From Hondaea fermentalgiana (lineage: Eukaryota; Sar; Bigyra; Thraustochytrida; Thraustochytriidae): DNA of 64,000 nt. Both the position numbers and the translations under genes were made by a program. Numbering within the stretch: the stretch's first letter is position 1; every line of letters starts with the position of its first letter. The stretch lies in contig NPFB01000019.1 in assembly GCA_014084085.1 (NCBI GenBank), forward strand, positions 833,832 through 897,831, written 5' to 3'. The notes under the pieces are model-generated. The model saw only the letters and a program-made list of their open reading frames with translations. It was not told the origin of the DNA and did not search any database. Below, in pieces: positions 40,237-64,000 of the stretch.

Positions 40237-43200
40237 TCACATAATGGGACAGCGGTCCCGAAAGGTCTGGTTGTGAGGATCGAGAGCCTTGCGAGCTGCC
40301 CGAAGGCTCTTGGAGTTAAGAAATTCGCAAGGAAAGAGACGATTCACGTCAGCATTGGCTGCAACGTCCTTGCGCACGTAAAACAAAAGATAGGCCCGCG
40401 AAGAGACGGCCTCTTCTTCGCTGATTTCGGTGATGATCCGGTCATCAAAGTTGTACCACTTGCCGTTGATCGAGCTCTTCGTTTTGGCAATGTAGTGGCC
40501 ACCGCCCAGGCTGCCCGTGTGGTCCACAACACCGTAAAGATCGTACTCCGGAGGGATACCGCCATGCTCATGGCCGCCGTACGCCCGTAAACCGACATAC
40601 TCTGAGTCCACCAACACGTCGACAAGCTCGAGTGCTTCCTCTTCTGCTTCGGCTTTAGCTAGGGCCTCAGGTGACAACGTCTGATCAGACGTCTCTGCCG
40701 CAGCGACGGACTTTCCGTGGCCCCCACCATTTTCGCCTTCAAACTCTTCTTCTTCCTCCTCTTCCTCCAAGGCATTGACCGGAGCGACAGCGCTGTCTTT
40801 GCGTGCAGACATCGATGATGGGCGCGCGTTCACCTCCGATTCTTTGCCAACGAAATGCCCATGGCTGACTCCAGCGGCATTGTCCGGCTCCGCATCGTCG
40901 ATATCCTCCTTTTCTTCGTCGTCGTCGTCGTCTTGTTCGTCCCCGCTACTGTCCTCATCCGCTTTGACGCCACGCTTGCGCAGGGCGAGATCAAGAGATC
41001 TGCGGGATTTGCGAGGCTGAGCAGGCATCGCATGAGCCAAATAAGGCGAAAGATCGAGATCTCGGGTCGGATACTCGACCAAATTCAAGAGTTTGCGGCT
41101 ACCATCAAAGCGCTTCAGATGCATCACGAGGATAGGAGGCGCACGCCAGAGCCCGAGCGTCATGGAGTGGTCCTTGAAGTCCTTGCACCGTGCACAGCGG
41201 GCCTGATCCTCCCCGGTGAGCTGCTCCTTCCGGACGAAATTCTCCAGCAAGGAAGACAAGGGCATCCGCTTCTGCTCTTCGCGTCGCACATCGTCGACAC
41301 TCGAATGTTTGTCCACAGGCATAAGAGTCAAAGCATTCGACCTCGATTTACCAGCGGGGGAACTCGCGCTTCCCCAGTCGACCACAAGCGTGCTCGGCCC
41401 CGTGAAAATCGTGGACACGGGAGTGCTTGTGGGCTGAATCGGGCAACCATCGCATGCAGACATCCATGAGCAACTGCCGCAAGTTCGTTGTTGCCTGTCG
41501 GCACCGAGAGCGACAATGGTGAATCCCCAGGTCGATCGGATCTGTGACGCGGACACATCCTTGGTCGGCGGAGAGCCGCCCAAACCCGCAGACGCACCAA
41601 TACTTTCAAAGACGCCCGGAGAAAGCGCGCCGCCCTCGTCACCAGCGTTCGCAGAAGGCGAAGAAGCGCCGTTGAACTGCCGAACTTGCCTCGCGACAGC
41701 CTCGTACAATGCATACCCCGAGAGTCTGTCGGGACGCGCCATGAGCACAAAGGGCATTCCTACCAGGACGGGGCGCATCGGGTTCACAAAGTAGCACGCG
41801 TGTTTGTGCCAGACCCGCTGCTCCAGCTTGAGTAGCATGGGCCTCATCGGAACTGCACGGACCTCGTTGCTCACGAGCACGACAGTGCGAGTCTCGCTGA
41901 TGTCATTTGTATCCGCAGCGAATTTGACCTGGTATTTGGGCAAGCGTCCCTGTCGCTTACTGGTGGTGCCTTTGATCCCAACCACAACGCCAAGCATTGG
42001 ACCGAAGTGGTCGTCCGAGACGTGATATTCCACTTGGGTCCCAACACCGATTTCAATCTCATCATCTTGCTGAGGTTGCCCCTCCGGGTCTCCAGTAACG
42101 CCAATGTCGCCATCAACCTCTGCATTCTTGTCATCGTCCTCGCCATCCGCCTCTTTGGCATTGTCGTCGTCACCTTCGTCGTCGTTAGCAGCAGCAGCAG
42201 CAGCGGCAGCCTCCTTTAAGTTGACCGCCGCGCCAGAAAACCCGTCTTCATGATGCAAATGAGGGAGCTCAAACGCGTACAAAGGGTCACGCGCGCGCAG
42301 GGTTTTCAACGGACGAGCGTCGGGTACAAAGCTGAATATCTGACGCTCAAACACATATGCCAAGACCAAGCGCTCCGAATCGAGGTTTCGCGGCGCACGT
42401 TCGCCGGCATTTTCATCCTCTGTGTTCGAAGTAGGACCTTGTAAAATCGACTGCACGACACTGCCCGTGGTGCCGGGCTGAAGATCGAGCAAGGCGCGAC
42501 GCACATCGCCAAAGTTACCTTCCTTGCGAAGACGCATCGCGACCAAAAGGGGCGGCCGCGAGGCGTCGGCAAACACCACATGGACCATCACCGTCCGCTT
42601 GGGTGACTCTGGAAGCGGGAGCGACAACGTCGAGAAAGGTTCGAAACGCGCCGATTCATACCCACACGTGTCGCACCGCAACAAGGTCTTGAACTGACCT
42701 GAAAACAACGCTGTGACGATGCTCAGTTCACGACGCAAGTGCGCCATCCACCACTCTCGCGCTACCTCTTGGTCTGCCCGCCCGTCCGAGTCCTTGAGCT
42801 CCACGTACGCTTTGCTCTTGATGCGATTGAGGTCTTGCGCAAGTCCATCAAGCAGAGAAGACAAGAGTTCCTGTGCATCTTGCTGCTGCACCCCGAGAAA
42901 TCGAGGGTCGTGCTTTGAAAGCTCCTTTTTGAAACGGCGCGGAGCGATAGAAGCCGGAATTCGCCCATTGGCGCCCCAGGCGATACGAAAGAGATCCGCA
43001 AAGGCGTCAGCCAGGAGACCGTGCGTGCTATCCCTGAGCGTCGTGTTCACATCCGACACGTAGGCATCGTCAAGAATGTACTGCTTCAACGACTCTGTGT
43101 GCAAAAGGCACTGCAGCGAGGCGGACATGAAGCAAGTGTTGCCGAGATTGGCCATGCCCACGTTTCCGAGCACCTGGGGCGCCGGCCGGCCGGGCGACGG

Positions 43201-45171
43201 GGGACCTCCTACAGGTCGTGTCGCCAGCTGGGTCTTCGCATTGCTGCGCGCAGTCTGCGCACCAATTGCAGGAAGACCACTCGAGGCGCGCGAGGTTGGC
43301 GAGTTGTGAGGCGAAGGCCCACCCCCCAGCATGACCACGCGCGCATTGATATGAGGCCCAGAAGCAATTTGGGTCTTTGGATCCCGAGGCCGAAGCGAAC
43401 GCAGGGTCTCGATGCTTGCTAGGGGCCAGCTTCCATCGGCGCTGCAAAGTTCGAGTATGATGGTTTGGTCATCTTCAAGGTCCGCCTCCTCGACAGTTTC
43501 TTGGGGATCCTGCAGAAGCTTGGCATTGATGTTCGGCCCGCGAAGAGGGCGCGCCTCGGGTCCAGAAAAGGTTGCCGAAAGCGACTCGAGGCTATCATCC
43601 ACCATGCACCAGAGTCGCATACACTCGGCAGAGAAGCGGTCACGGTTCTGCAAAGCAGCCCGCTTTTGCGCGAGACCATCCTCCGCGGCAGCACTCTGCG
43701 TGCTGTAAAGACTATCCGTGGATAGCGCGCGTCCTCGGGGTTCCATGAGACGGTCCAAGATGGCACGCTCAATGTCCCGCACGGTAGCGCGACGTGAAAC
43801 TTGGATTCTTGCCGGTCTGTCGGCGTTGAAGCTGCCCAGATGGGCTCGATCAGAGGTGGTGTCAAGGCCCGACTCTGCTTCCCCGGAAAAGGCGACGCAG
43901 CGCACATGAAGCGAGACGGGGAAAAGTTCAATCTCAGCACGCTCGAAAGGCGTCTCGGCAGAAATGACCTTGCGCGCGAGGACGGGTCCACCCCCATACG
44001 TACGGTGAAGAAATTCCCAAGCATCACGACACAATATCACAAAGTCCTGCTGGTGGTTGAGCTCGGGGCGCAGCACGCAGAATTCGAGCTCGCCCAGGTC
44101 TCGCGGATCGTTGGGGTCTTGCTCGGGCTCAAGTCCGCGAACGATGTCGCGATTATCGATTGGTCCAGGCCGCTCGAGTTGGCGGCTGCTCCGCAGCGAC
44201 ATCAAATCGACCTCCCCATGAGAGTATCCGCTATAGGCCTGCCACGCTCGAAACCATCTTGCAGACACAACAAACCAGACATCACCCGGCACAAGGAGCT
44301 CGCGATCGGGAGATCGATGCATACGCTTGAAAGTGCTTCCTTCTTCAAGCTGTGCGCGACTTGACTGGTGACGCACAAAAGCAGGGTGTCGTATGAGATT
44401 AGCGTCTGCAAAGGGGCCGCCCGTTGACTGCGACAGATGCGCGTTGAGCCCATATCCTTGGGCTGCTTGGCGCATCATAGCACTTTCAACTTCATCCGGT
44501 CGGGGAGGGAGCGGTGGCCCGAGCTTGCTCATTGGCCCGCATTCGGCCACATCTGAAACAGTGGTCTGCGCAGCAGCCATGAAGACAGGACCCAGGAGCT
44601 TTTGCCCGACGCGCGTTGGCCAGCTCACAAGCGGGGAATCCATGAACTGCACCATACTTCGCGAGAACGCTTCTAGTGTGAGCGGGGAAGCCCATTCCGC
44701 ATTTGTTCCTCGCGTGCGAGCAAAGGCTTTGTCGATGAGGTCGTACGAAGACCGGCGCTCGTCGTCGCTCAAGCGATGATCATCGAGGCAATCGGCAAAT
44801 CGTAGAAGAGAATGGCGACTGAGAGCGCCGGTTCTTTCGTCGTCGTACACCTGAAAAAGAAAGCGCAACCGCTCTTCGTGCTTGCCGCGGCAGAGAATAC
44901 ATAGACCGCAGAGCAGCTCATTCCAATCGAGCGCCTGATTTCTGTTCACATCGAAAACACTAAACATGCGGAGCGCAAGAGGCTCGGGAAAATCTGGAAA
45001 ATCTGCGAGAACCAGAGATTTGAACGTCATGAAGCCAATTTCGCTGAATCCTTGTTGGGGAGACGCACTTGCCAGTCTGTCGAATCCGCTGCGAAGTGTC
45101 CTAAGTTCGAGCGGTGTAAACCGTTTTCGCGCCTCCTCCGGCGACACGATTCGCCCATGTGTCCCACCCAT
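40237..45171 (-). CDS. USP32-type ubiquitin-specific protease (EF-hand, DUSP, USP, CaaX)
   Basis: 1644 aa. MGG at the N-terminus could be N-myristoylated. EF-hand loop DVNRNQALDWNE at 74-85 is canonical; the next (from D110) is degenerate with Ser at position 12. A DUSP domain begins near 295 (PGDVWFVVSARWFRAW), and a ubiquitin-like stretch follows around 520-590. The USP catalytic domain has the Cys box GNTCFMSASLQCL (Cys680, codon 43132-43134), the USP32-like block YVELKDSDGRADQEVA, zinc-binding pairs CDTCGY and CARCKD, and the His box GSLGGGHYIAKTK (His1559) with YNFDD after it. An acidic insertion splits the domain as in USP32. The protein ends CPIM, a CaaX prenylation signal; human USP32 is likewise membrane-linked through a CaaX box. 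It removes ubiquitin from substrates on endomembranes (family inference). Confidence 0.9.
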   Translation of the reverse strand: MGGTHGRIVSPEEARKRFTPLELRTLRSGFDRLASASPQQGFSEIGFMTFKSLVLADFPDFPEPLALRMFSVFDVNRNQALDWNELLCGLCILCRGKHEERLRFLFQVYDDERTGALSRHSLLRFADCLDDHRLSDDERRSSYDLIDKAFARTRGTNAEWASPLTLEAFSRSMVQFMDSPLVSWPTRVGQKLLGPVFMAAAQTTVSDVAECGPMSKLGPPLPPRPDEVESAMMRQAAQGYGLNAHLSQSTGGPFADANLIRHPAFVRHQSSRAQLEEGSTFKRMHRSPDRELLVPGDVWFVVSARWFRAWQAYSGYSHGEVDLMSLRSSRQLERPGPIDNRDIVRGLEPEQDPNDPRDLGELEFCVLRPELNHQQDFVILCRDAWEFLHRTYGGGPVLARKVISAETPFERAEIELFPVSLHVRCVAFSGEAESGLDTTSDRAHLGSFNADRPARIQVSRRATVRDIERAILDRLMEPRGRALSTDSLYSTQSAAAEDGLAQKRAALQNRDRFSAECMRLWCMVDDSLESLSATFSGPEARPLRGPNINAKLLQDPQETVEEADLEDDQTIILELCSADGSWPLASIETLRSLRPRDPKTQIASGPHINARVVMLGGGPSPHNSPTSRASSGLPAIGAQTARSNAKTQLATRPVGGPPSPGRPAPQVLGNVGMANLGNTCFMSASLQCLLHTESLKQYILDDAYVSDVNTTLRDSTHGLLADAFADLFRIAWGANGRIPASIAPRRFKKELSKHDPRFLGVQQQDAQELLSSLLDGLAQDLNRIKSKAYVELKDSDGRADQEVAREWWMAHLRRELSIVTALFSGQFKTLLRCDTCGYESARFEPFSTLSLPLPESPKRTVMVHVVFADASRPPLLVAMRLRKEGNFGDVRRALLDLQPGTTGSVVQSILQGPTSNTEDENAGERAPRNLDSERLVLAYVFERQIFSFVPDARPLKTLRARDPLYAFELPHLHHEDGFSGAAVNLKEAAAAAAAANDDEGDDDNAKEADGEDDDKNAEVDGDIGVTGDPEGQPQQDDEIEIGVGTQVEYHVSDDHFGPMLGVVVGIKGTTSKRQGRLPKYQVKFAADTNDISETRTVVLVSNEVRAVPMRPMLLKLEQRVWHKHACYFVNPMRPVLVGMPFVLMARPDRLSGYALYEAVARQVRQFNGASSPSANAGDEGGALSPGVFESIGASAGLGGSPPTKDVSASQIRSTWGFTIVALGADRQQRTCGSCSWMSACDGCPIQPTSTPVSTIFTGPSTLVVDWGSASSPAGKSRSNALTLMPVDKHSSVDDVRREEQKRMPLSSLLENFVRKEQLTGEDQARCARCKDFKDHSMTLGLWRAPPILVMHLKRFDGSRKLLNLVEYPTRDLDLSPYLAHAMPAQPRKSRRSLDLALRKRGVKADEDSSGDEQDDDDDEEKEDIDDAEPDNAAGVSHGHFVGKESEVNARPSSMSARKDSAVAPVNALEEEEEEEEFEGENGGGHGKSVAAAETSDQTLSPEALAKAEAEEEALELVDVLVDSEYVGLRAYGGHEHGGIPPEYDLYGVVDHTGSLGGGHYIAKTKSSINGKWYNFDDRIITEISEEEAVSSRAYLLFYVRKDVAANADVNRLFPCEFLNSKSLRAARKALDPHNQTFRDRCPIM

Positions 45172-55144: not shown

Positions 55145-58100
55145 CTACTGGGGAGTCATGGACGGAGACGCGCTCGAATTGATTGACCCAGTGGTCTTGC
55201 TTCGTACAACTTGTGTTGTGTTGGCAATGACGAGTTGGCACTGTTCGATGATTGTCGTGAACCGCTCTGGCGTCAGCGCGTGCGTTTCATCCATGATCTG
55301 ACGAGGGTTGCCTGCCAGGGGCTTGAGAAAGGGATGCTCGCCGATCGCATCCAAAAGAGTGTACGGGTTTGCAGTCTTCTCGCGCGGGGGCTCTGCGCTC
55401 GACATGAGCTTGGCAATGTATGAGGGAGAGCAGAGGCGCGTCGAGAGGGCGAGGCGCAGAAAGAGAAGCGCTGCATCCCGATGATGCAGAGGCCGCAATT
55501 TCAGGTTGGTCACAGTGTAACCAGGAATGCGGCCGATGCTCTTGGAACTGGTCATGAGGATACAGAGTCCCTCAACCTCGTCCGAGAGGCGACCCAAAAA
55601 CGTGCGAAAGCTTGGGTCCTTGCTGTCAATGTTATCGCAGCCACTGAGCAGCAGTAGAAATTTGCGGTACCGCAGAAGCTCAAAGAGCTGCTCGCGATAC
55701 ACCTCCTCCATGTCCATAGCTGAACTATCGCCTTGGAGGCTAGATGAAGCCGTTTTGAGAGAACGGGTTCCGTGCGCCGGGGGCGCGCTGTGCGGATCAA
55801 TTGTGCGATCGCGCAGCTTTTTCACGAGCTCGCTCACGGAACTCATCTCGTTCGCGCGAATGAGAATCGCGCCTTGCGGAAAGTTGCCGCGGCGCAGTGC
55901 GTAATTGACCACAAATGAGGCCAGCGACAGCTTGCCGATACCAGACGTGCCCGTGCACGAAACGATGCGACGGGTCATGATAGCCGCCAAAAGGTCGTAG
56001 GCCTGCACATTGCGGCCAAGAAATTCCTTGGGCAGGGCCGAAGAGACAAAGCTCCCCCACCACAGCCGCCGGCGCTCTTCCTGCCGCTCCTGGTCCTCGG
56101 GAAGACCCGACACTATGGCATCGCCCGAGGGCCAGCGCTTGAGCTCGGCACGTCCGGGGAAAATGGGAACATCGTGGTTGGCATCCTTTGGCAGCAAGAG
56201 GAACTTGCTCGCTTGTTCAGGGCGAATGCTCGGCGCCATGGAAGCAGCGACGCCTCCGACGCGGGCCTGTTCTTGAGCCCGTACAGCCTGGGTGGCCACA
56301 TCAAAGGCCTTGCGGACCGTTCCTCCAATTGCGAGCTCCAGGTAGAACCATCGAGTGAAGGCTTGCGCAGCCGTATCCTGAATGCGCTCAGCAACCTTGA
56401 CGCAGACCACGTGAGGAACACCGGCGTCGATAAAAGCCTGGCCGGCAAACTCGGAATGGCAGGCAGAGACGAAGGCCAGCTTCACCTTGGACATCTTGCT
56501 GCCGCTCGCGCCGCCCGCCAGGTCGCGGAGTACCGAAGTAGCAACGGGCCGCGCACCTCCAATCTGGTCTTCGAAGAGGAGCGCGTCGCGGCTACCATGA
56601 CCCGAGTAGTGGATCGCACGACTGCGCAAGGTCACCTCGGAGCGAAGACGATCCATAGTCGCAAAGCCAAACGAGAGATTGATGTCGCGCTTTGCATCTT
56701 GAAAGGTCTGCATCAGCATATGGCGCTCCGCCTCATACTCAATGCTTGCGCAAGCCATCGGCTGACCATCCGGCCCAAAGTGCACCAAGGGGATGGAAAA
56801 CAAAACGCTCAAACGTGGGCGAAAGCCATCACGTTCGTCCTGAATCATGTCGTGCACCATTGGGTTCATCATAACGTCTCCATTGCCGGAGCCCGAGAGG
56901 GAAGGACCGCCTCCGCTTGTCGGAGACGGGTTTGCCCACGCGTCCGGGCTGTCGAAGCTTCCCGATGGGCTGGAGAACGAGGGGTCCATATCCCACGACG
57001 GGAGCGCGCTTGCCGAAGACCATTGCTGCTGCTGCTGGAGGCCTTGAGATCGCGCGCGGTTTACACCAATGAATTCGGACTTGGCGCGTTCCAGAAGCTC
57101 GCGCTTTTCCCTGGCACGAAGCGCCTCAGCCCAGATCCGACGCGAGCTTCGCACCGTCTCGTCAATAAGGTCGCGATCTGACTGACGCAGACCCTTGCAT
57201 CCATGGAGACCAATGTAGTGAGGGCAGCTCATGCGAAGCGCAAGGCAAATCTCCTTGCCAGCGACCTCGCCGAGCATGTTCTCGCTGAGATCGAGCTCCT
57301 GAAGATGCGTTCCCCTTTCCAGCAGCTCCACAACGGCGCACACCAAGACGTTGTCGCCCGAGAGACGGCAGCCGCCAAGACCGAGCGCGCGCAGGCGCGA
57401 GTCCGGGGTGGCGATGCGGCGAAACAATGCGCTGGCCGCGCGAGAACCAATGGGCATGTTACCCATGTGCAGCTCATGCAAGGTACCTGGACAGGACTCC
57501 GAACCGAGCAGCGGCTTGCCCTCATCGCTAAAGAGGGTCTGAAACATCTTGGTCGGGAAACCAAGAACCGCGTTGTTCGAAAGGTCAATGCCACGCACAG
57601 CCCAGTCCTCGGTGGAGGCGGTGGAAATCGCATCTAGCACCGCGGCGCAGTGCGCGTCCGTCAGGTTGTTACCACTAAGATCGAGCCACCGTACGCGCAA
57701 TTTGGGCGGCAACGCGGAGCCTTCGTGGTGCGATGTGGGCGGCTGCAGCAAATGCAGGATGGGGTTAAGGTCACGACCGGAAAGACCGCTTTCGCGAATG
57801 GAAAGGCCCGCAAGGCTGAGGGATATTGTGCGCCGCGTGAGAATGGCCTTGGCAATGAGGGCCACGTCCTTCCCGCGGCAGAGAAGGTTGTCGAACGTGA
57901 GCCATTGCACGGTATCAGGAAGAAAGCGGACAAGCTTGGCGAGCACCTTGGTGTCAATCCGCTGATCTCCGTCTGTAGGTCCAATGAGAGTGAGCGAGGT
58001 GATACTGGGGAAGCGACGCAGGCAGTCCAAAAGGTTGTCGAAAAAGTGCTCGTTGGAGCACTTGGTGCACTCCCGCACACAGAGCGCCCACTCTTGGGCA

Positions 58101-61100
58101 GGTGGTTCGTCTTTGTCGCCGACGCCACCAAGAACGGTCGCGACGCTATGAGAGGCGAGAACCTTTTGCAGAATTGAAGAGAACTGCTTTGTCAGATGAC
58201 GGCTGGAGGGGATCGTAATGTGAAGCGGAAGCTCGGGGAGGAGGAGCTCGGATGATGGGGTGCGATGACCTTCGCGTGCATATGGGAAGAGGAAGCGGCG
58301 ACGTTCCAAAAGATTGGGAATCGACTGCTTGAGAAGCTCAGCATACCACGAGGGCATGGAACGAGCAATACCGTCGAGTCCAAGATGAGCATCGTCGTGC
58401 AGAGGACCGAATGCGGAATGATCCAAGATGAAGCCAAGGTGAGATGCCCAGGACGTAATGTAGCGCTCCGAAATGATGCGCAGTTGCTGGTCAATCTCGT
58501 CAGAAGGTGTCGGCGTGGTAGTCGTGCCAACGAGCCCGCGCAGCCACAGGGGCGGCTCATAAGAGGGGGCGTCCTTCTGGTAGGCAAGGAAGCGGTTCAA
58601 CGTGACGGCAAAGGCGCTGTGTGCTGAGACCTCCTTGGCGGCCTGGTGAACAGCATCCGTAGGCGAGTCCCAGTATTCGGAACCCCTTTGCTTGAGTGCA
58701 ATGCCGGCAAGCGTCTGAAATTCGAGCGATGCCTGAATGCGGCCCCAGGTGCGCAAAAGCTCAGGGCTGTTTCCTGAGAGAATGACGTCGTCGATGCCAT
58801 CCTCGAAACCAAGGGCAATAAGTACGTCCTCGACGCTTTCTTGGAACTGGCCACCCGAAAGCGACCCGTCCGATTCCCCATTCAACAAGCCGAGGAGCCC
58901 TCGCAGAGAGCTCTGGATCATCTGCGGGCGAATGACCTCGCTACCCGGGCACTCGGCCACGGATGCAAGCAGACGGCAGAGCTCCATTTGGATGACGGCA
59001 ACAGGATAGTTGAGCATGGCGCTGGCGGTGGCCACGACGCCAGTAATGTTGGGAAGGTAGGTACCTGCAATGCGGTCCCAGCGCTTGGGGATCGCCAAAT
59101 TCCTCGAAATGACATGATAAAATCCCGAGAGGAGACGCACGGCCTGGTGAGCAACCTCAATTTCAGCACCAGGTGGGTCACACAAAGTAAGGTGCCGGGA
59201 TGAGGCAGACTCGATGCTCTCTGGAATTCCAAAAAGATGACGCAAGGTTTCCAACGCGTATTCAATACCACCTGCGAGAGCGACGCGAGTCGAGGCATCC
59301 GGAGAAGCGTTGGCCAAATTACCGAGCACGCTCGCGGCGGCGAGTCGCACTTCGTTTCGAGCGGTAATGATGTCTGGAGTGTCCGAAGCTGCGCAAGTAA
59401 TGGCCGCTTGGGCAGTGAGACGCAAGGTGCGAATCATGACGCGCGCCACGGACTGCTTCGCAAGTGCCTCGCACGCATCGCGTCCAAGCTTGCTGAGCTG
59501 AAAGACGGCTTGCAGCGTGTAAAAAGTGATGAGATCGTCCTGGCTCCGGCAAAGTCGCGTGAGAGCACGCGCATGCGTGGCAACAACCTTCCAGGGGAGC
59601 GCGTCTCCACTACCAACGTTCTTGTAACGCGCAGTAGCGCGCGAGACGGCATTGCAAATGTGCATAAAGGTAGCTGCCAGGTAGCGCAACTCTTCGCGAC
59701 GCTCGCGCGTCTCTGCCGAAAGGGCATCATCACCACCGCCGGCTTGATAGTGCCCTGCAATGACGCCGAGAATACCGTCAGGCTCTTCGCTGCTCGAGGT
59801 GCTCGGTCCGCCGCTGGAATCCTCGTTGCTGGACGTCCTGCTGTTGGAGCTCGAGGACCCGCCCGATGAGAGTCCGTGTTTGCGCTTTTTCGATTGCTTG
59901 GCCGACCCCATGGGCATGGGCACCGGACCTTGCACGACGGACTCCGGGCGCAGCATGACGCCCTGAACCTCGGACGCGGCATTCGCTCGGTTCGAAAGAG
60001 ACGAGCATGAACCGTCCGAGCCGGAAAGCAGCGAGGCGGAGCAGGTGCCGTCGCCTCCGGCGGCGGCGCTGGACAGAGGGGGCGCGCTTGCCATCGAAGG
60101 CCGAGTCATCGGCATGGGACCCGAACCATCTTTTTCTTCCAGAGGCGGGGTCTGCTCACGCACTGTGACGCCACCAGTCTCGTCTTTAGGGACCACGCCC
60201 GCGAGACAGTGACCCGCGAGGCTTCCCAAAACACGAGGAGCGTCGAGCTCGAGAAGTTTGCGTTCACAAGGCCCAAGCGACGAGAGGATGGCGAGTGCCG
60301 CAGCCACGCTGCTGCGCGTCGCAGGCGGGAGATTTTCGCGGTCGACGACCTTGAAGAGCGCGGCGACGGCGCCGCAAGAGACGAGCTGGCCAACCGTCCA
60401 GCCAACGGTGACGAGATCAACATCCTCCCCGGCAAAAGGATCGGCCCCGCTAATGTCGCATACAAGGCGCGGAGCAGCAGCGGCGGAGAGCCAAAAGACT
60501 GCACGCGTGGCATGATAGACAATGACATCATCGGCAGCGCCGAGCGTGGTGGTGATCATCTCGAGCACATTTTCTTCCAGGAGAACTTGATGCGCCCTTG
60601 TGTACTGGCAGAGGACCGAGATCGAGTAGACGGCAAACTGACGCGCCTCGCGCCAGACCTTGACAGGGTCCTCGTCGTCGAGGTCTCCGTCATCGGTCGC
60701 GCGATGACTGGATGCGTTGTCAGGGCAGGCGGCTAGACAGATTTCCATGAGAAGAGGTGTCGCGGACTCGGCCATGAGGTGCACCCACTCGCCAATCGCG
60801 TCTTCAGGATCGGCGATGGGCAGGACCGCACCAGTACTGAGACGAAGGCTGTCACGGTAGGCGAGGATCATGCACAGATTGGCAACGGCAAGCGAGGCCT
60901 CGCGCATGGTAAAAACACATCCTTTGCGGCCATGCTTCCACGAGTGAGCATCACAGCAAAAACAATCATTGCGCACAAGAACGCCGCAGGCGCGGATGAT
61001 GCTCGGAAGTTCTGCCAAAAACCCCTTGGCGACGAAGCGTGGGTCCGCGCGCGGGTCGAGCTCGGTCTGCGCGGTAGATGAGACATTTGAAAGCGAGGCC

Positions 61101-64000
61101 GCGGACGTGGGAGCCGCAGGGTGATCTTCCTCAGAGGCGATGGAAGGCCTTCGAATGCCCGATTGGCGTTGAGCGTTGGATCGGCTGTACGCCGCTGCGC
61201 GCGTGGATGACCCGGAAGAGTTCGAGGATGTAGCAGAGCGCTCGAGCGTCTGAAGCGTCGACGTCGAGTCCGTGCTGACCCACGACCCGCTGACAATAGC
61301 AACAATGGCGGTGGCGACAGCGTGCTTGAGCTTGAGGTTTTTGCGGCAGCGAGCGCTCGCCAGGACCGTAGAGAGCGTGCTCATGGCGCCCTCTTGATAA
61401 GCGTTCATCCGGCTCCAGGTACGGATCTCTGCATTCTTTTCCCCATCGCGCACAAGGTACGCGAGCGCGCGAGCGGCATTGAGCTGTGCCTGCTCTGTGC
61501 CACCGCGCAAGCTGCAGAGGAGCTCCTGGGTGCTGTCGGCCAAACCTTTGGACATGCTATAGGACTCGGTGGGTCGAAAGATCTTGCTGGCCTCTTCAGC
61601 GGAGACGGGGGGAAGTCCAGCCTCAACGCGCGAGCGAAAGAGGGAGGTGTGGTCGATGACTGTAAGGAGGGCATCTTGGAGCTCGAGCAGGTCGCCAAGA
61701 ATAGCATCGTCTGGAGTTTCGCAAATGAGGTTGTAAATGCGGTGTCTGAGGAGGATGCTCTTTTCCTCTGCAAGACTTGCCTCGTCGAGCGCCTCGACCT
61801 CTGAGGAGTTGGCCTTGGTGAAAACTTCGAGCTGCGCAGACAGCTCTGTGACGTCGCTTCGGAGTTGTTCGAGGCGTTCACGCAGAGCCTCGGTGGTCTC
61901 CATTGCCACCTCTTGCTCGACGGCCTCTTCGAGAGCGGGCGCCAGAGCGAGATCTACCTGCCGCAGCGAATTTGCGGCCGTGATCGCGCCGAGGTCGGAA
62001 GTATTCGTCGACGAATTCGAGGAGAGTTTTGAAACAGCGCGAGGAAGGGCATCGCGCTTGGCGCCGCGGCTCGCGGCCGTGCTTGCGCTGGCGAGTGTTC
62101 CGGTGTCGCTGCCATGAAGACTCGAGGTAGATGAGGCCTGGGAATCGAGGAGGCCCTGGATCCGAGAAGACATCTTGGAGGTGAGCTGAACGGCTTTTTC
62201 AATGTGGCCCGAACGACCAGCCAATCCCTCGTCCTCGGGTCGAGGGGACGACGGTGATGACGCGCTTGTTGCTGAGGATGCTGATCTGGATGAGGGAGCC
62301 GTGGGGTTTTGTGGTAATGCAGTGGAACCCATCATGTCCAACGGACGCTTACTAAGCGATGCGGAGGCGTCCGAATACTGTTGATGTGCGCTCGAGTCGC
62401 GACGCAAGGAGCGCATGAGGCGGCGTGAGGGCGCCTCGTTGGCCTCCTTGATCATATTAAGGCCGAGGCCGCGATCGATGGTCCGCGGTACGCCTTCGGG
62501 ATTACGTGGCGCCTCAACTTCGTGGTCGCTGCCGGACGGCGTCTTGCCCAGGGAAGCGAGCGAGGCGTCCGAAGACCCGCCCGATGTTGCTGATGAGGCG
62601 CGGGAATTAGAATTCGAAGAGGTGCCGCGGCCGATCTTGAGGTGGACGGGCGTGACGACAGCGGGTCGCGCACGCCGGACCTTGCCGAGGCGCGAAGAGT
62701 CCCAGCAAAAGCTGGAGTCGCCGAAATTAACCGAGGCATGCACGCAGGGTGAGCGGATGCCGAGGACAGGGAACAGGCTCGCGGTGGCTGGCATGGCGTC
62801 GAGCTCGCGGGCACCGTGAGCGATTTTAAAGGCAACGCCGAGAAGCTTTCCGTTGCGAGTGAAAAAGACATGGCGCTTGCAGGGGTCCCATCCGCAGCCA
62901 ATAACGTCGTTGGGAGCGAATTGGGGGCAGAATTGGTCGGCGGAGGCGCCGGCCATGCTCGCTGCCGAACCGGCAAAGAGACGGCCGCTGGAATGCAAGG
63001 CCCAGGAGCCAGGATTCCAGCCTGGATAATTAATTTTGTCGGGGGTACTGGCGAGCTCGAGGCCGATGGCGACCTCGCTGCCGACCTCGAGACGTGAAAA
63101 GCGCACTTCAAAGTAGAGGATTTCGTCGTCTTCGTCCTCGTTTGGTGCAAGGTCGCCGGTGGGTGACTCTTCGTTGTCGTCGTTTTCGGTATCGTCATCG
63201 GGTGCTCGTAATGACTTATTACCCTCGAGGCGAAAGGGGAAACCTACATCGCCGCATGCGACAAAGAGGCCGCCCGAGATCCAGGCTGCCTTTTCGCAGG
63301 TTTTGACAGCGGTGCCGCTGGCGGTAAGGCGTGCGGCGTTGCTTTCTGCGCCGCGTGCGAGCACGACGCGGGTGGGTCCATCATTCGGAAGGCTACCCAT
63401 CCTCGATGTCATGCGACTCGTGGCGCCGAGAGAGTCAGCTTCGTATTCGTCGTCGCTGGACTCGTCGAACTCGAGATTGGCGGCGTCAAAGACGAGGTCG
63501 AGTTCGTCAAAGTCAAGTTCGTCGTTCAGGCCCGAGGCTACGATCTCCTGCTTGCTGGGGTAGGATGAGGAGGCGTAGACGTAAGGGGAGTTGTTGACGT
63601 GATTGTTGTGGTTGTAGAGGTTGCTGTTGCTGTTGCCGATACCGGTGCCGGTGCCGGTGCCTGCGGCGGGCCGCAGACAGTCCGAGCCCCCGCGGCCTCT
63701 GCGGCCGCGGCCGGCGGGTCCGGCGTTCGCCGACGAGGAGGGCGGTGGCGGCCTCGCTACGGCGCAGCCCCGTGCGTCCTGCTCTTGTTGCTCGTCGTCC
63801 TCGGCGGCCCGGTTGACGCTGCCTCTCCTCGTGGCTGCTCCTCCTGCTCCGACGGCCTCGACCGTCCTCCACACGGGCTCGTGCAGCGCGCTCAGCTGCC
63901 CGAGCGCCAGCCGCGCCGCGCGCCTGCTGCCGCCCGCCTCCCGCGCCGCGGCGCCCGTCCGCGGCTCCGTCTTTCCTTCGCGCGCGCGCGCCTCCTGCTC
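55145..64000 (-). CDS. Giant SPRY-ARM-LRR-CHAT-STAND protein, 5' end outside window
   Basis: The minus-strand frame is open from the right edge to a stop at 55145 (about 2950 codons). No ATG exists near the edge (63874 is GTG), so the start lies outside. In order: Gly/Ser/Asn-rich N-terminus; SPRY domain (about 63300-62700, EILYFEVRF, IGLELASTP, DVIGCGWD); Ser-rich linker; coiled coil (about 61940-61730); ARM-type helices (about 61700-58650); leucine-rich repeats (about 58010-57190, WLDLSGNNLTD, GIDLSNNAVLG); CHAT caspase-like domain (about 56850-56250) with His in HYSGHGS (codon 56597-56599) and Cys in SACHSEF (codon 56459-56461); NB-ARC-like STAND domain (about 56070-55300) with FLGRNVQAYDLL, P-loop GTSGIGKLS and FLLLLSGCDNID. 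The P-loop Ser/Thr after GK is Leu and the Walker B Asp is Ser. It looks like an NLR/STAND protease switch; function inferred. Confidence 0.85.
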   Translation of the reverse strand, partial: EQEARAREGKTEPRTGAAAREAGGSRRAARLALGQLSALHEPVWRTVEAVGAGGAATRRGSVNRAAEDDEQQEQDARGCAVARPPPPSSSANAGPAGRGRRGRGGSDCLRPAAGTGTGTGIGNSNSNLYNHNNHVNNSPYVYASSSYPSKQEIVASGLNDELDFDELDLVFDAANLEFDESSDDEYEADSLGATSRMTSRMGSLPNDGPTRVVLARGAESNAARLTASGTAVKTCEKAAWISGGLFVACGDVGFPFRLEGNKSLRAPDDDTENDDNEESPTGDLAPNEDEDDEILYFEVRFSRLEVGSEVAIGLELASTPDKINYPGWNPGSWALHSSGRLFAGSAASMAGASADQFCPQFAPNDVIGCGWDPCKRHVFFTRNGKLLGVAFKIAHGARELDAMPATASLFPVLGIRSPCVHASVNFGDSSFCWDSSRLGKVRRARPAVVTPVHLKIGRGTSSNSNSRASSATSGGSSDASLASLGKTPSGSDHEVEAPRNPEGVPRTIDRGLGLNMIKEANEAPSRRLMRSLRRDSSAHQQYSDASASLSKRPLDMMGSTALPQNPTAPSSRSASSATSASSPSSPRPEDEGLAGRSGHIEKAVQLTSKMSSRIQGLLDSQASSTSSLHGSDTGTLASASTAASRGAKRDALPRAVSKLSSNSSTNTSDLGAITAANSLRQVDLALAPALEEAVEQEVAMETTEALRERLEQLRSDVTELSAQLEVFTKANSSEVEALDEASLAEEKSILLRHRIYNLICETPDDAILGDLLELQDALLTVIDHTSLFRSRVEAGLPPVSAEEASKIFRPTESYSMSKGLADSTQELLCSLRGGTEQAQLNAARALAYLVRDGEKNAEIRTWSRMNAYQEGAMSTLSTVLASARCRKNLKLKHAVATAIVAIVSGSWVSTDSTSTLQTLERSATSSNSSGSSTRAAAYSRSNAQRQSGIRRPSIASEEDHPAAPTSAASLSNVSSTAQTELDPRADPRFVAKGFLAELPSIIRACGVLVRNDCFCCDAHSWKHGRKGCVFTMREASLAVANLCMILAYRDSLRLSTGAVLPIADPEDAIGEWVHLMAESATPLLMEICLAACPDNASSHRATDDGDLDDEDPVKVWREARQFAVYSISVLCQYTRAHQVLLEENVLEMITTTLGAADDVIVYHATRAVFWLSAAAAPRLVCDISGADPFAGEDVDLVTVGWTVGQLVSCGAVAALFKVVDRENLPPATRSSVAAALAILSSLGPCERKLLELDAPRVLGSLAGHCLAGVVPKDETGGVTVREQTPPLEEKDGSGPMPMTRPSMASAPPLSSAAAGGDGTCSASLLSGSDGSCSSLSNRANAASEVQGVMLRPESVVQGPVPMPMGSAKQSKKRKHGLSSGGSSSSNSRTSSNEDSSGGPSTSSSEEPDGILGVIAGHYQAGGGDDALSAETRERREELRYLAATFMHICNAVSRATARYKNVGSGDALPWKVVATHARALTRLCRSQDDLITFYTLQAVFQLSKLGRDACEALAKQSVARVMIRTLRLTAQAAITCAASDTPDIITARNEVRLAAASVLGNLANASPDASTRVALAGGIEYALETLRHLFGIPESIESASSRHLTLCDPPGAEIEVAHQAVRLLSGFYHVISRNLAIPKRWDRIAGTYLPNITGVVATASAMLNYPVAVIQMELCRLLASVAECPGSEVIRPQMIQSSLRGLLGLLNGESDGSLSGGQFQESVEDVLIALGFEDGIDDVILSGNSPELLRTWGRIQASLEFQTLAGIALKQRGSEYWDSPTDAVHQAAKEVSAHSAFAVTLNRFLAYQKDAPSYEPPLWLRGLVGTTTTPTPSDEIDQQLRIISERYITSWASHLGFILDHSAFGPLHDDAHLGLDGIARSMPSWYAELLKQSIPNLLERRRFLFPYAREGHRTPSSELLLPELPLHITIPSSRHLTKQFSSILQKVLASHSVATVLGGVGDKDEPPAQEWALCVRECTKCSNEHFFDNLLDCLRRFPSITSLTLIGPTDGDQRIDTKVLAKLVRFLPDTVQWLTFDNLLCRGKDVALIAKAILTRRTISLSLAGLSIRESGLSGRDLNPILHLLQPPTSHHEGSALPPKLRVRWLDLSGNNLTDAHCAAVLDAISTASTEDWAVRGIDLSNNAVLGFPTKMFQTLFSDEGKPLLGSESCPGTLHELHMGNMPIGSRAASALFRRIATPDSRLRALGLGGCRLSGDNVLVCAVVELLERGTHLQELDLSENMLGEVAGKEICLALRMSCPHYIGLHGCKGLRQSDRDLIDETVRSSRRIWAEALRAREKRELLERAKSEFIGVNRARSQGLQQQQQWSSASALPSWDMDPSFSSPSGSFDSPDAWANPSPTSGGGPSLSGSGNGDVMMNPMVHDMIQDERDGFRPRLSVLFSIPLVHFGPDGQPMACASIEYEAERHMLMQTFQDAKRDINLSFGFATMDRLRSEVTLRSRAIHYSGHGSRDALLFEDQIGGARPVATSVLRDLAGGASGSKMSKVKLAFVSACHSEFAGQAFIDAGVPHVVCVKVAERIQDTAAQAFTRWFYLELAIGGTVRKAFDVATQAVRAQEQARVGGVAASMAPSIRPEQASKFLLLPKDANHDVPIFPGRAELKRWPSGDAIVSGLPEDQERQEERRRLWWGSFVSSALPKEFLGRNVQAYDLLAAIMTRRIVSCTGTSGIGKLSLASFVVNYALRRGNFPQGAILIRANEMSSVSELVKKLRDRTIDPHSAPPAHGTRSLKTASSSLQGDSSAMDMEEVYREQLFELLRYRKFLLLLSGCDNIDSKDPSFRTFLGRLSDEVEGLCILMTSSKSIGRIPGYTVTNLKLRPLHHRDAALLFLRLALSTRLCSPSYIAKLMSSAEPPREKTANPYTLLDAIGEHPFLKPLAGNPRQIMDETHALTPERFTTIIEQCQLVIANTTQVVRSKTTGSINSSASPSMTPQ

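Follow-up and report, generated by a model that had tools for sequence, protein, structure and literature searches.

What does a protein do that joins several recognition modules, a caspase-like protease and an NTPase core of apoptotic type in a single chain? The question is raised by a window of 64,000 nucleotides from Hondaea fermentalgiana, a thraustochytrid (Labyrinthulomycetes), whose end is also the end of contig NPFB01000019.1 and where a minus-strand frame (64000-55145) comprises 2951 open codons. In this frame, a SPRY domain, armadillo repeats, leucine-rich repeats (LRRs), a CHAT domain and a C-terminal CED-4/Apaf-1-like NTPase core of the STAND type follow one another in that order. 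An earlier note, made from the sequence, had placed the recognition modules at the N-terminus and the protease between sensors and NTPase, had looked to labyrinthulomycetes for relatives, and had proposed an immune or cell-death switch. Its observation was confirmed, including the host group and the order of the domains, and its interpretation was partly supported. The explanation favoured here, with slightly better than even confidence, is that of an autoinhibited, sensor-gated caspase-like protease in which the NTPase core acts as an assembly or gating platform and not as a hydrolytic switch.

Each module was backed by Pfam, by homology or by an AlphaFold2 model. Profile searches recovered CHAT, SPRY and LRR_1 above their cut-offs, but NB-ARC remained under its cut-off and ARM had no Pfam match on the window protein itself. 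SPRY was found on the whole protein (residues 296-397, 49 bits for a cut-off of 26.3). On a cut fragment, LRR_1 reached 25.6 bits (cut-off 20.6) as a sum over repeats whose single stretches were each under the cut-off, and LRR_6, LRR_8 and LRR_4 were all below their own cut-offs. For the first armadillo array, residues 709-1262 showed 31% identity (E 1e-55) to the relative P0002, which carries PF00514. The model of residues 790-1262, based on a five-row alignment, was middling because of its pLDDT of 68.4 and pTM of 0.71. All 50 PDB matches listed by Foldseek for this model were armadillo-type structures (best E 9e-6), with low TM-scores by query length (0.18-0.40); they included designed armadillo proteins, importin alpha/karyopherin, plakoglobin and the engineered OR497 and OR329, which we take to be armadillo designs. 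A profile of 18 family members matched RanBP9/10 SPRY, armadillo and NLRP/ribonuclease-inhibitor LRR structures among its best 60 of 356 PDB matches, while no match to the CHAT or STAND regions was found among the same 60. Two further candidates were rejected: the sole NCBIfam match, GvpQ (10.4 bits for a cut-off of 100), was taken as chance, and a HECT-ligase likeness of the segment ahead of the LRRs was dropped as no tool result stood behind it.

The CHAT domain was missing from the whole-protein Pfam scan at E<=10 and appeared once the fragment was cut out, where PF12770 scored 33.7 bits (35.8 bits in the genome search; cut-off 24). A caspase/CHAT fold was predicted by AlphaFold2. The catalytic residues reported as intact in the earlier note were indeed present, the motifs HYSGHGS and SACHSEF starting at residues 2464 and 2512, with the putative catalytic pair at His2468 and Cys2514. 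With the CHAT-STAND part as query, a search at E<=1 returned the window's own protein and 46 others, and the dyad was kept in all 47. A second search, with P0004 as query, returned 112 proteins at E<=0.01, overlapping the first set. Both searches scored only the approximately 8000 candidates with most shared words, a selection that favours conserved motifs; their match lists were clustered at 90% identity and limited in length, and family counts take in related sequences and fragments. The CHAT domain is predicted on these motifs to be a protease, and its activity belongs to the explanation favoured above.

The C-terminal core was predicted to consist of a nucleotide-binding domain (NBD) and a helical domain, with CED-4 and Apaf-1 as best structural matches. 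Its Pfam scores on the cut fragment were all under the cut-offs (NB-ARC 22.0 vs 23.5; AAA_16 24.0 vs 32.6); NB-ARC reached 29.1 bits in P0002. Judged from its sequence, this core is not an intact switch: the Walker A Thr/Ser and the Walker B Asp, two residues for Mg/ATP hydrolysis, are gone in the Hondaea copy. The metagenomic sister P0102 has both losses too (GKL and LLLLCGCD). In addition, the Walker A Lys is replaced by Arg in 65 of the 67 tips of a bolidophyte-diatom clade in the tree, to which every labelled bolidophyte entry and the majority of the labelled diatom entries belong. The diatom Walker A motif reads GRS, and Mucochytrium has GKT together with the Walker B Asp. The alignments thus read point to NTPase residues lost more than once, in separate lineages, while the protease active site stayed constant. 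The structural alignment stops at CED-4 354 and Apaf-1 347, and the absence of a winged helix was judged against the domain borders that we assume for these two proteins. In agreement with the earlier note, nothing follows the core, which leaves 268 residues from P-loop to C-terminus; over 45 rows this distance had a median of 233 and a range of 219-486, with 42 at or below 292. The winged helix and a C-terminal sensor are absent from the window protein and, by length, from 42 of the 45 rows. The working STAND switch that had been proposed is not supported in view of these features. An NB-ARC profile search of the Hondaea genome gave no match at E<=0.001 (6 of 14 control genomes gave matches), as would fit degenerate NTPase cores.

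Constraint was evaluated with P0102, which matches residues 1499-2942 at 70%. Identity was 88% in CHAT, 84% in STAND, 71% in the LRRs, 63% in the second armadillo array, 61% in the pre-LRR segment and 43% in the linker ahead of CHAT; with its 84%, the STAND core is thus still maintained despite its degeneration. In the first-search set, the commonest residue per column had a mean share of 0.72 in CHAT and 0.55 in STAND, and CHAT is 59% identical to that of Mucochytrium.

The protein is not peculiar to this protist, since related proteins are, on sequence similarity, widespread in stramenopiles (thraustochytrids, bolidophytes, diatoms and a chrysophyte). Named entries came from Mucochytrium, Triparma (two species, three entries), Proboscia, Seminavis, two Nitzschia, Pseudo-nitzschia, Epithemia, Entomoneis and Ochromonas, some database labels being abbreviated or truncated. 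Farther CHAT-STAND proteins were found in Cafeteria, Aphanomyces and the dinoflagellate Polarella, and CHAT-first proteins in the diatoms Grammatophora and Extubocellulus. Among both match lists, no named genome other than Hondaea had more than one match. Eight relatives were scanned with Pfam: the five module kinds occurred in the same order at E<=0.01 in four (P0002, P0003, P0006 and the diatom Seminavis protein P0032), some calls being below curated cut-offs, and calls were missing for ARM in P0004, for CHAT in P0041 and for LRR and CHAT in P0016, while P0045 (Cafeteria) showed a PUA domain and otherwise NTPase calls only. SPRY was found in 19 of 47 and 29 of 149 proteins with a profile that is partly circular, as eight members went into it; the other proteins possibly include N-terminally cut entries. 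The whole order appears to be carried on single transcripts, since P0002 comes from a transcriptome (mmetsp) and P0004 is named in transcriptome style and labelled 'ORF type:complete'.

Several relatives departed from this plan. P0120 has the order SPRY-SAM-CHAT-STAND, as have P0126 and P0127 according to precomputed domain lists only. Other modules were seen ahead of CHAT in P0135, with a kinase-CHAT order, and in P0058, with PDZ-SPRY-ARM. The metagenomic P0136, P0138, P0139 and P0141-P0145 carry LRRs beside CHAT-STAND and belong to a clade in which eight of nine members have lost the dyad; several also have odd Walker A ends, such as GKD.

A mechanism can be proposed on this basis. Architecture, conservation, intact dyad and NTPase motif losses were observed in the sequences, and the folds come from prediction. 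The N-terminal modules would bind a protein ligand or partner and keep CHAT inactive. Ligand or partner binding would shift the repeat scaffold, so that the C-terminal STAND core could pack with its neighbours, and this packing may order the CHAT active site, in analogy with the partner-driven linker-domain movement that gates TPR-CHAT in Craspase. The core may hold nucleotide, hydrolysis not being needed. The output would be limited cleavage of a substrate, leading to death, defence or ordinary signalling. Such a large signalling protease probably resides in the cytosol; inspection by eye showed no membrane or secretion segment in it, no predictor having been run.

The closest known systems share parts of this design. 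SAVED-CHAT (PDB 8tl0) and Craspase TPR-CHAT have a caspase-like CHAT fold, a His/Cys dyad and a sensor or repeats ahead of the protease, and the proposed activation by assembly or partner-driven rearrangement would be a further likeness. However, both are CRISPR-linked bacterial proteins with SAVED or TPR sensors and, to our knowledge, have no STAND core past CHAT. CED-4, Apaf-1 and plant NLR NB-ARC domains have the NBD and helical domain fold predicted for the window protein, but the latter lacks the winged helix and C-terminal repeats, has lost Walker residues and carries a protease in the same chain. In the bacterial P0053 (from a Sulfuricella metagenome-assembled genome), CHAT also stands ahead of the NTPase, yet SIR2 lies between CHAT and NB-ARC, and TPR and FGE follow in the usual sensor-last layout. 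Separase is a large helical-repeat protein with a CHAT-type protease domain at its end; we know of no SPRY, LRR or STAND in it. For fungi, two reports (PMC12881547, PMC10197012) describe control of gasdermin-type death by CHAT proteases in fusion with NLRs or TPRs, and here too CHAT adjoins a STAND NTPase or repeats in eukaryotes. Antiviral STANDs and fungal NLRs are described with an effector-NOD-sensor layout (PMC10907252, PMC10197012), the effector being N-terminal, the nucleotide-binding oligomerization domain (NOD) central and the sensor C-terminal in fungal CHAT NLRs. The window protein departs from this tripartite order: its sensors come first, then the protease, and its degenerate STAND core comes last. 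As the earlier note had supposed, no description of a SPRY-ARM-LRR-CHAT-STAND architecture was found in the literature searched, which leaves out preprints and most subscription papers, and the family may tentatively be regarded as an undescribed arrangement among CHAT-STAND proteins.

Among the alternatives, a housekeeping or developmental regulatory protease survives best, although we consider its chances clearly less than even. Like separase, it would place a large repeat scaffold ahead of a CHAT-type protease whose cellular substrates would be one or few; this rival concerns function and can be compatible with the favoured mechanism. It draws on the spread of the family over several groups of stramenopiles, where no named genome other than Hondaea has more than one listed match, on the slow evolution of CHAT and on the likeness of TPR-CHAT to separase (PMC9729208). 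The copy counts, however, come from matches listed in searches and not from genome surveys, a separate separase-like gene seems present in Hondaea, and a CED-4/Apaf-1-type core joined to SPRY, ARM and LRR suggests signal-triggered assembly.

The reading proposed earlier is considered unlikely. In it, a pathogen cue would set off ATP/ADP exchange and hydrolysis in STAND and so activate the protease, the whole being an immune or cell-death switch of NLR type. The fungal CHAT fusions, the CHAT-NB-ARC-TPR-FGE succession of P0053 and the resemblance of the family LRR profile to NLRP and ribonuclease-inhibitor repeats speak for it, but the missing Walker residues, the Lys to Arg change in 65 of 67 tips of the bolidophyte-diatom clade and the lack of winged helix and C-terminal sensor are difficult to reconcile with a hydrolytic switch. 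Moreover, the expansion usual for immune receptors was not evident, with at most one listed match per named genome other than Hondaea, and the neighbouring genes are ordinary. For the favoured gated protease, an immune or death output is possible by analogy with the fungal CHAT-gasdermin pairs (PMC12881547, PMC10197012); a conserved protease with a signalling role is an equally good or better fit, again because of the low number of listed matches.

That the CHAT domain is a pseudoprotease scaffold seems very improbable. Among the 143 tips of the tree, 10 have lost the dyad, including eight from the single clade of nine, and P0052, a CHAT-STAND protein of the oomycete Aphanomyces stellatus, has Gln for His and Thr for Cys, yet a normal GVGKT P-loop; however, the window protein and the other 46 first-search rows retain both residues. 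An artefact, in which separate genes were read as one frame or misassembled, has next to no credibility: the single open frame lies at a contig end with an uncertain 5' end, but the shared module order in half of the scanned relatives, their transcriptome sources and the independent match of P0102 argue against it, and a Mucochytrium entry of transcriptome origin has the whole order within one ORF (open reading frame), which therefore excludes a fusion artefact.

The features of the gene are collected below.

Features of the SPRY-ARM-LRR-CHAT-STAND gene, in window coordinates
Feature	Position	Strand	Residues and basis
Gene part inside the window	55145..63660	-	Frame, database protein, codon usage; stop codon 55147-55145; true 5' end probably off contig
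SPRY/B30.2 and flanks	62696..63133	-	290-435; Pfam core 296-397
Helical lead-in and first armadillo array	60215..61876	-	709-1262; homology, AlphaFold2 of 790-1262, Foldseek
Second armadillo-like array	58631..59575	-	1476-1790; homology to P0002, P0003, P0102; armadillo nature inferred
Conserved segment ahead of LRRs	58046..58630	-	1791-1985; conservation among relatives
Leucine-rich repeats	57131..58045	-	1986-2290; ribonuclease-inhibitor/NLRP-like by family profile
CHAT caspase-like protease domain	56126..56824	-	2393-2625; profile, motifs, predicted fold
Putative catalytic His2468 codon (second His of HYSGHG)	56597..56599	-	Role assigned from position in CHAT motif
Putative catalytic Cys2514 codon (SACHS)	56459..56461	-	Motif position
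Degenerate STAND core (NBD and helical domain, winged helix absent)	55256..56053	-	2650-2915
Walker A GTSGIGKL, Leu in place of Thr/Ser	55928..55951	-	2684-2691
Walker B LLLLSGCD, Ser in place of Mg-binding Asp	55634..55657	-	2782-2789

Codon usage preferred the frame 64000-55145 over both other frames in 10 of 10 blocks of 300 codons. The earliest in-frame ATG is at 63412, and the coding signal extends 5' of it to about 63,660-63,700. The database copy P0001 begins at 63658 without Met, two bases past a CAG that is a possible splice acceptor. This coding signal ahead of the first ATG and the start of P0001 make it probable that the contig lacks an upstream exon, and the coding status of 63660-64000 is doubtful. 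Seven neighbouring ORFs were scanned with Pfam: three had no match and the others encode a FAD-binding protein, SART-1, an EF-hand/DUSP ubiquitin protease and a methyltransferase. These genes give no clue to function. The ubiquitin-specific protease (40237-45171, minus strand) has EF-hands and DUSP, with a weak USP32_N match (19.6 bits, under the cut-off).

Other genes of the Hondaea genome encode related domains. The paralogue FCC1311_100172 (L006:3071-6610 + on contig C79; the database entry P0048 is 100% identical to the translated frame) has an EGF-like domain, then CHAT and a STAND core, with a hydrophobic N-terminus and a likely transmembrane stretch before CHAT, the signal peptide and membrane stretch being assigned by eye. 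By these sequence features it looks like a cell-surface receptor with the CHAT protease inside. In its relatives P0049-P0051, Gln or Arg stands in place of the Walker A Lys. A third CHAT-STAND gene (L007:2714-5482 -, contig C15) has a C-terminal SH2 domain (25.0 bits for a cut-off of 21), so that CHAT-STAND is also joined to a phosphotyrosine-type reader. The separase-like protein (L008:4858-9900 -, contig C133) has a C-terminal CHAT (25.1 bits for a cut-off of 24) and a SAP-like segment, its separase and SAP labels coming from motifs by eye. Peptidase_C14 (metacaspase-type) gave four matches at three places on contigs C12 and C184; the genome therefore also has ordinary metacaspase-like genes. 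A gasdermin search of the Hondaea genome gave no match, nor did the control genomes, which makes it uninformative.

A wider reading can be offered tentatively. Stramenopiles, diatoms included, would carry an ancient sensor-first apoptosome in one chain, the diatom-bolidophyte core having been a non-hydrolysing pseudo-NTPase since the common ancestor of these groups, and activation would therefore proceed by ligand-driven assembly alone. Caspase-like activity has been reported in dying phytoplankton, and the family, if this reading is true, would be a candidate source of it. According to PMC8455989, phytoplankton have metacaspases but no caspases. In diatoms and their relatives, a caspase-fold protease joined to an Apaf-1/CED-4-type core would be a concrete gene for questions of regulated proteolysis and death. 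The family presents NLR-type parts in another order, with a constant protease active site and NTPase residues lost in separate lineages, and would offer a way to examine whether a STAND core can control an effector when it does not hydrolyse nucleotide.
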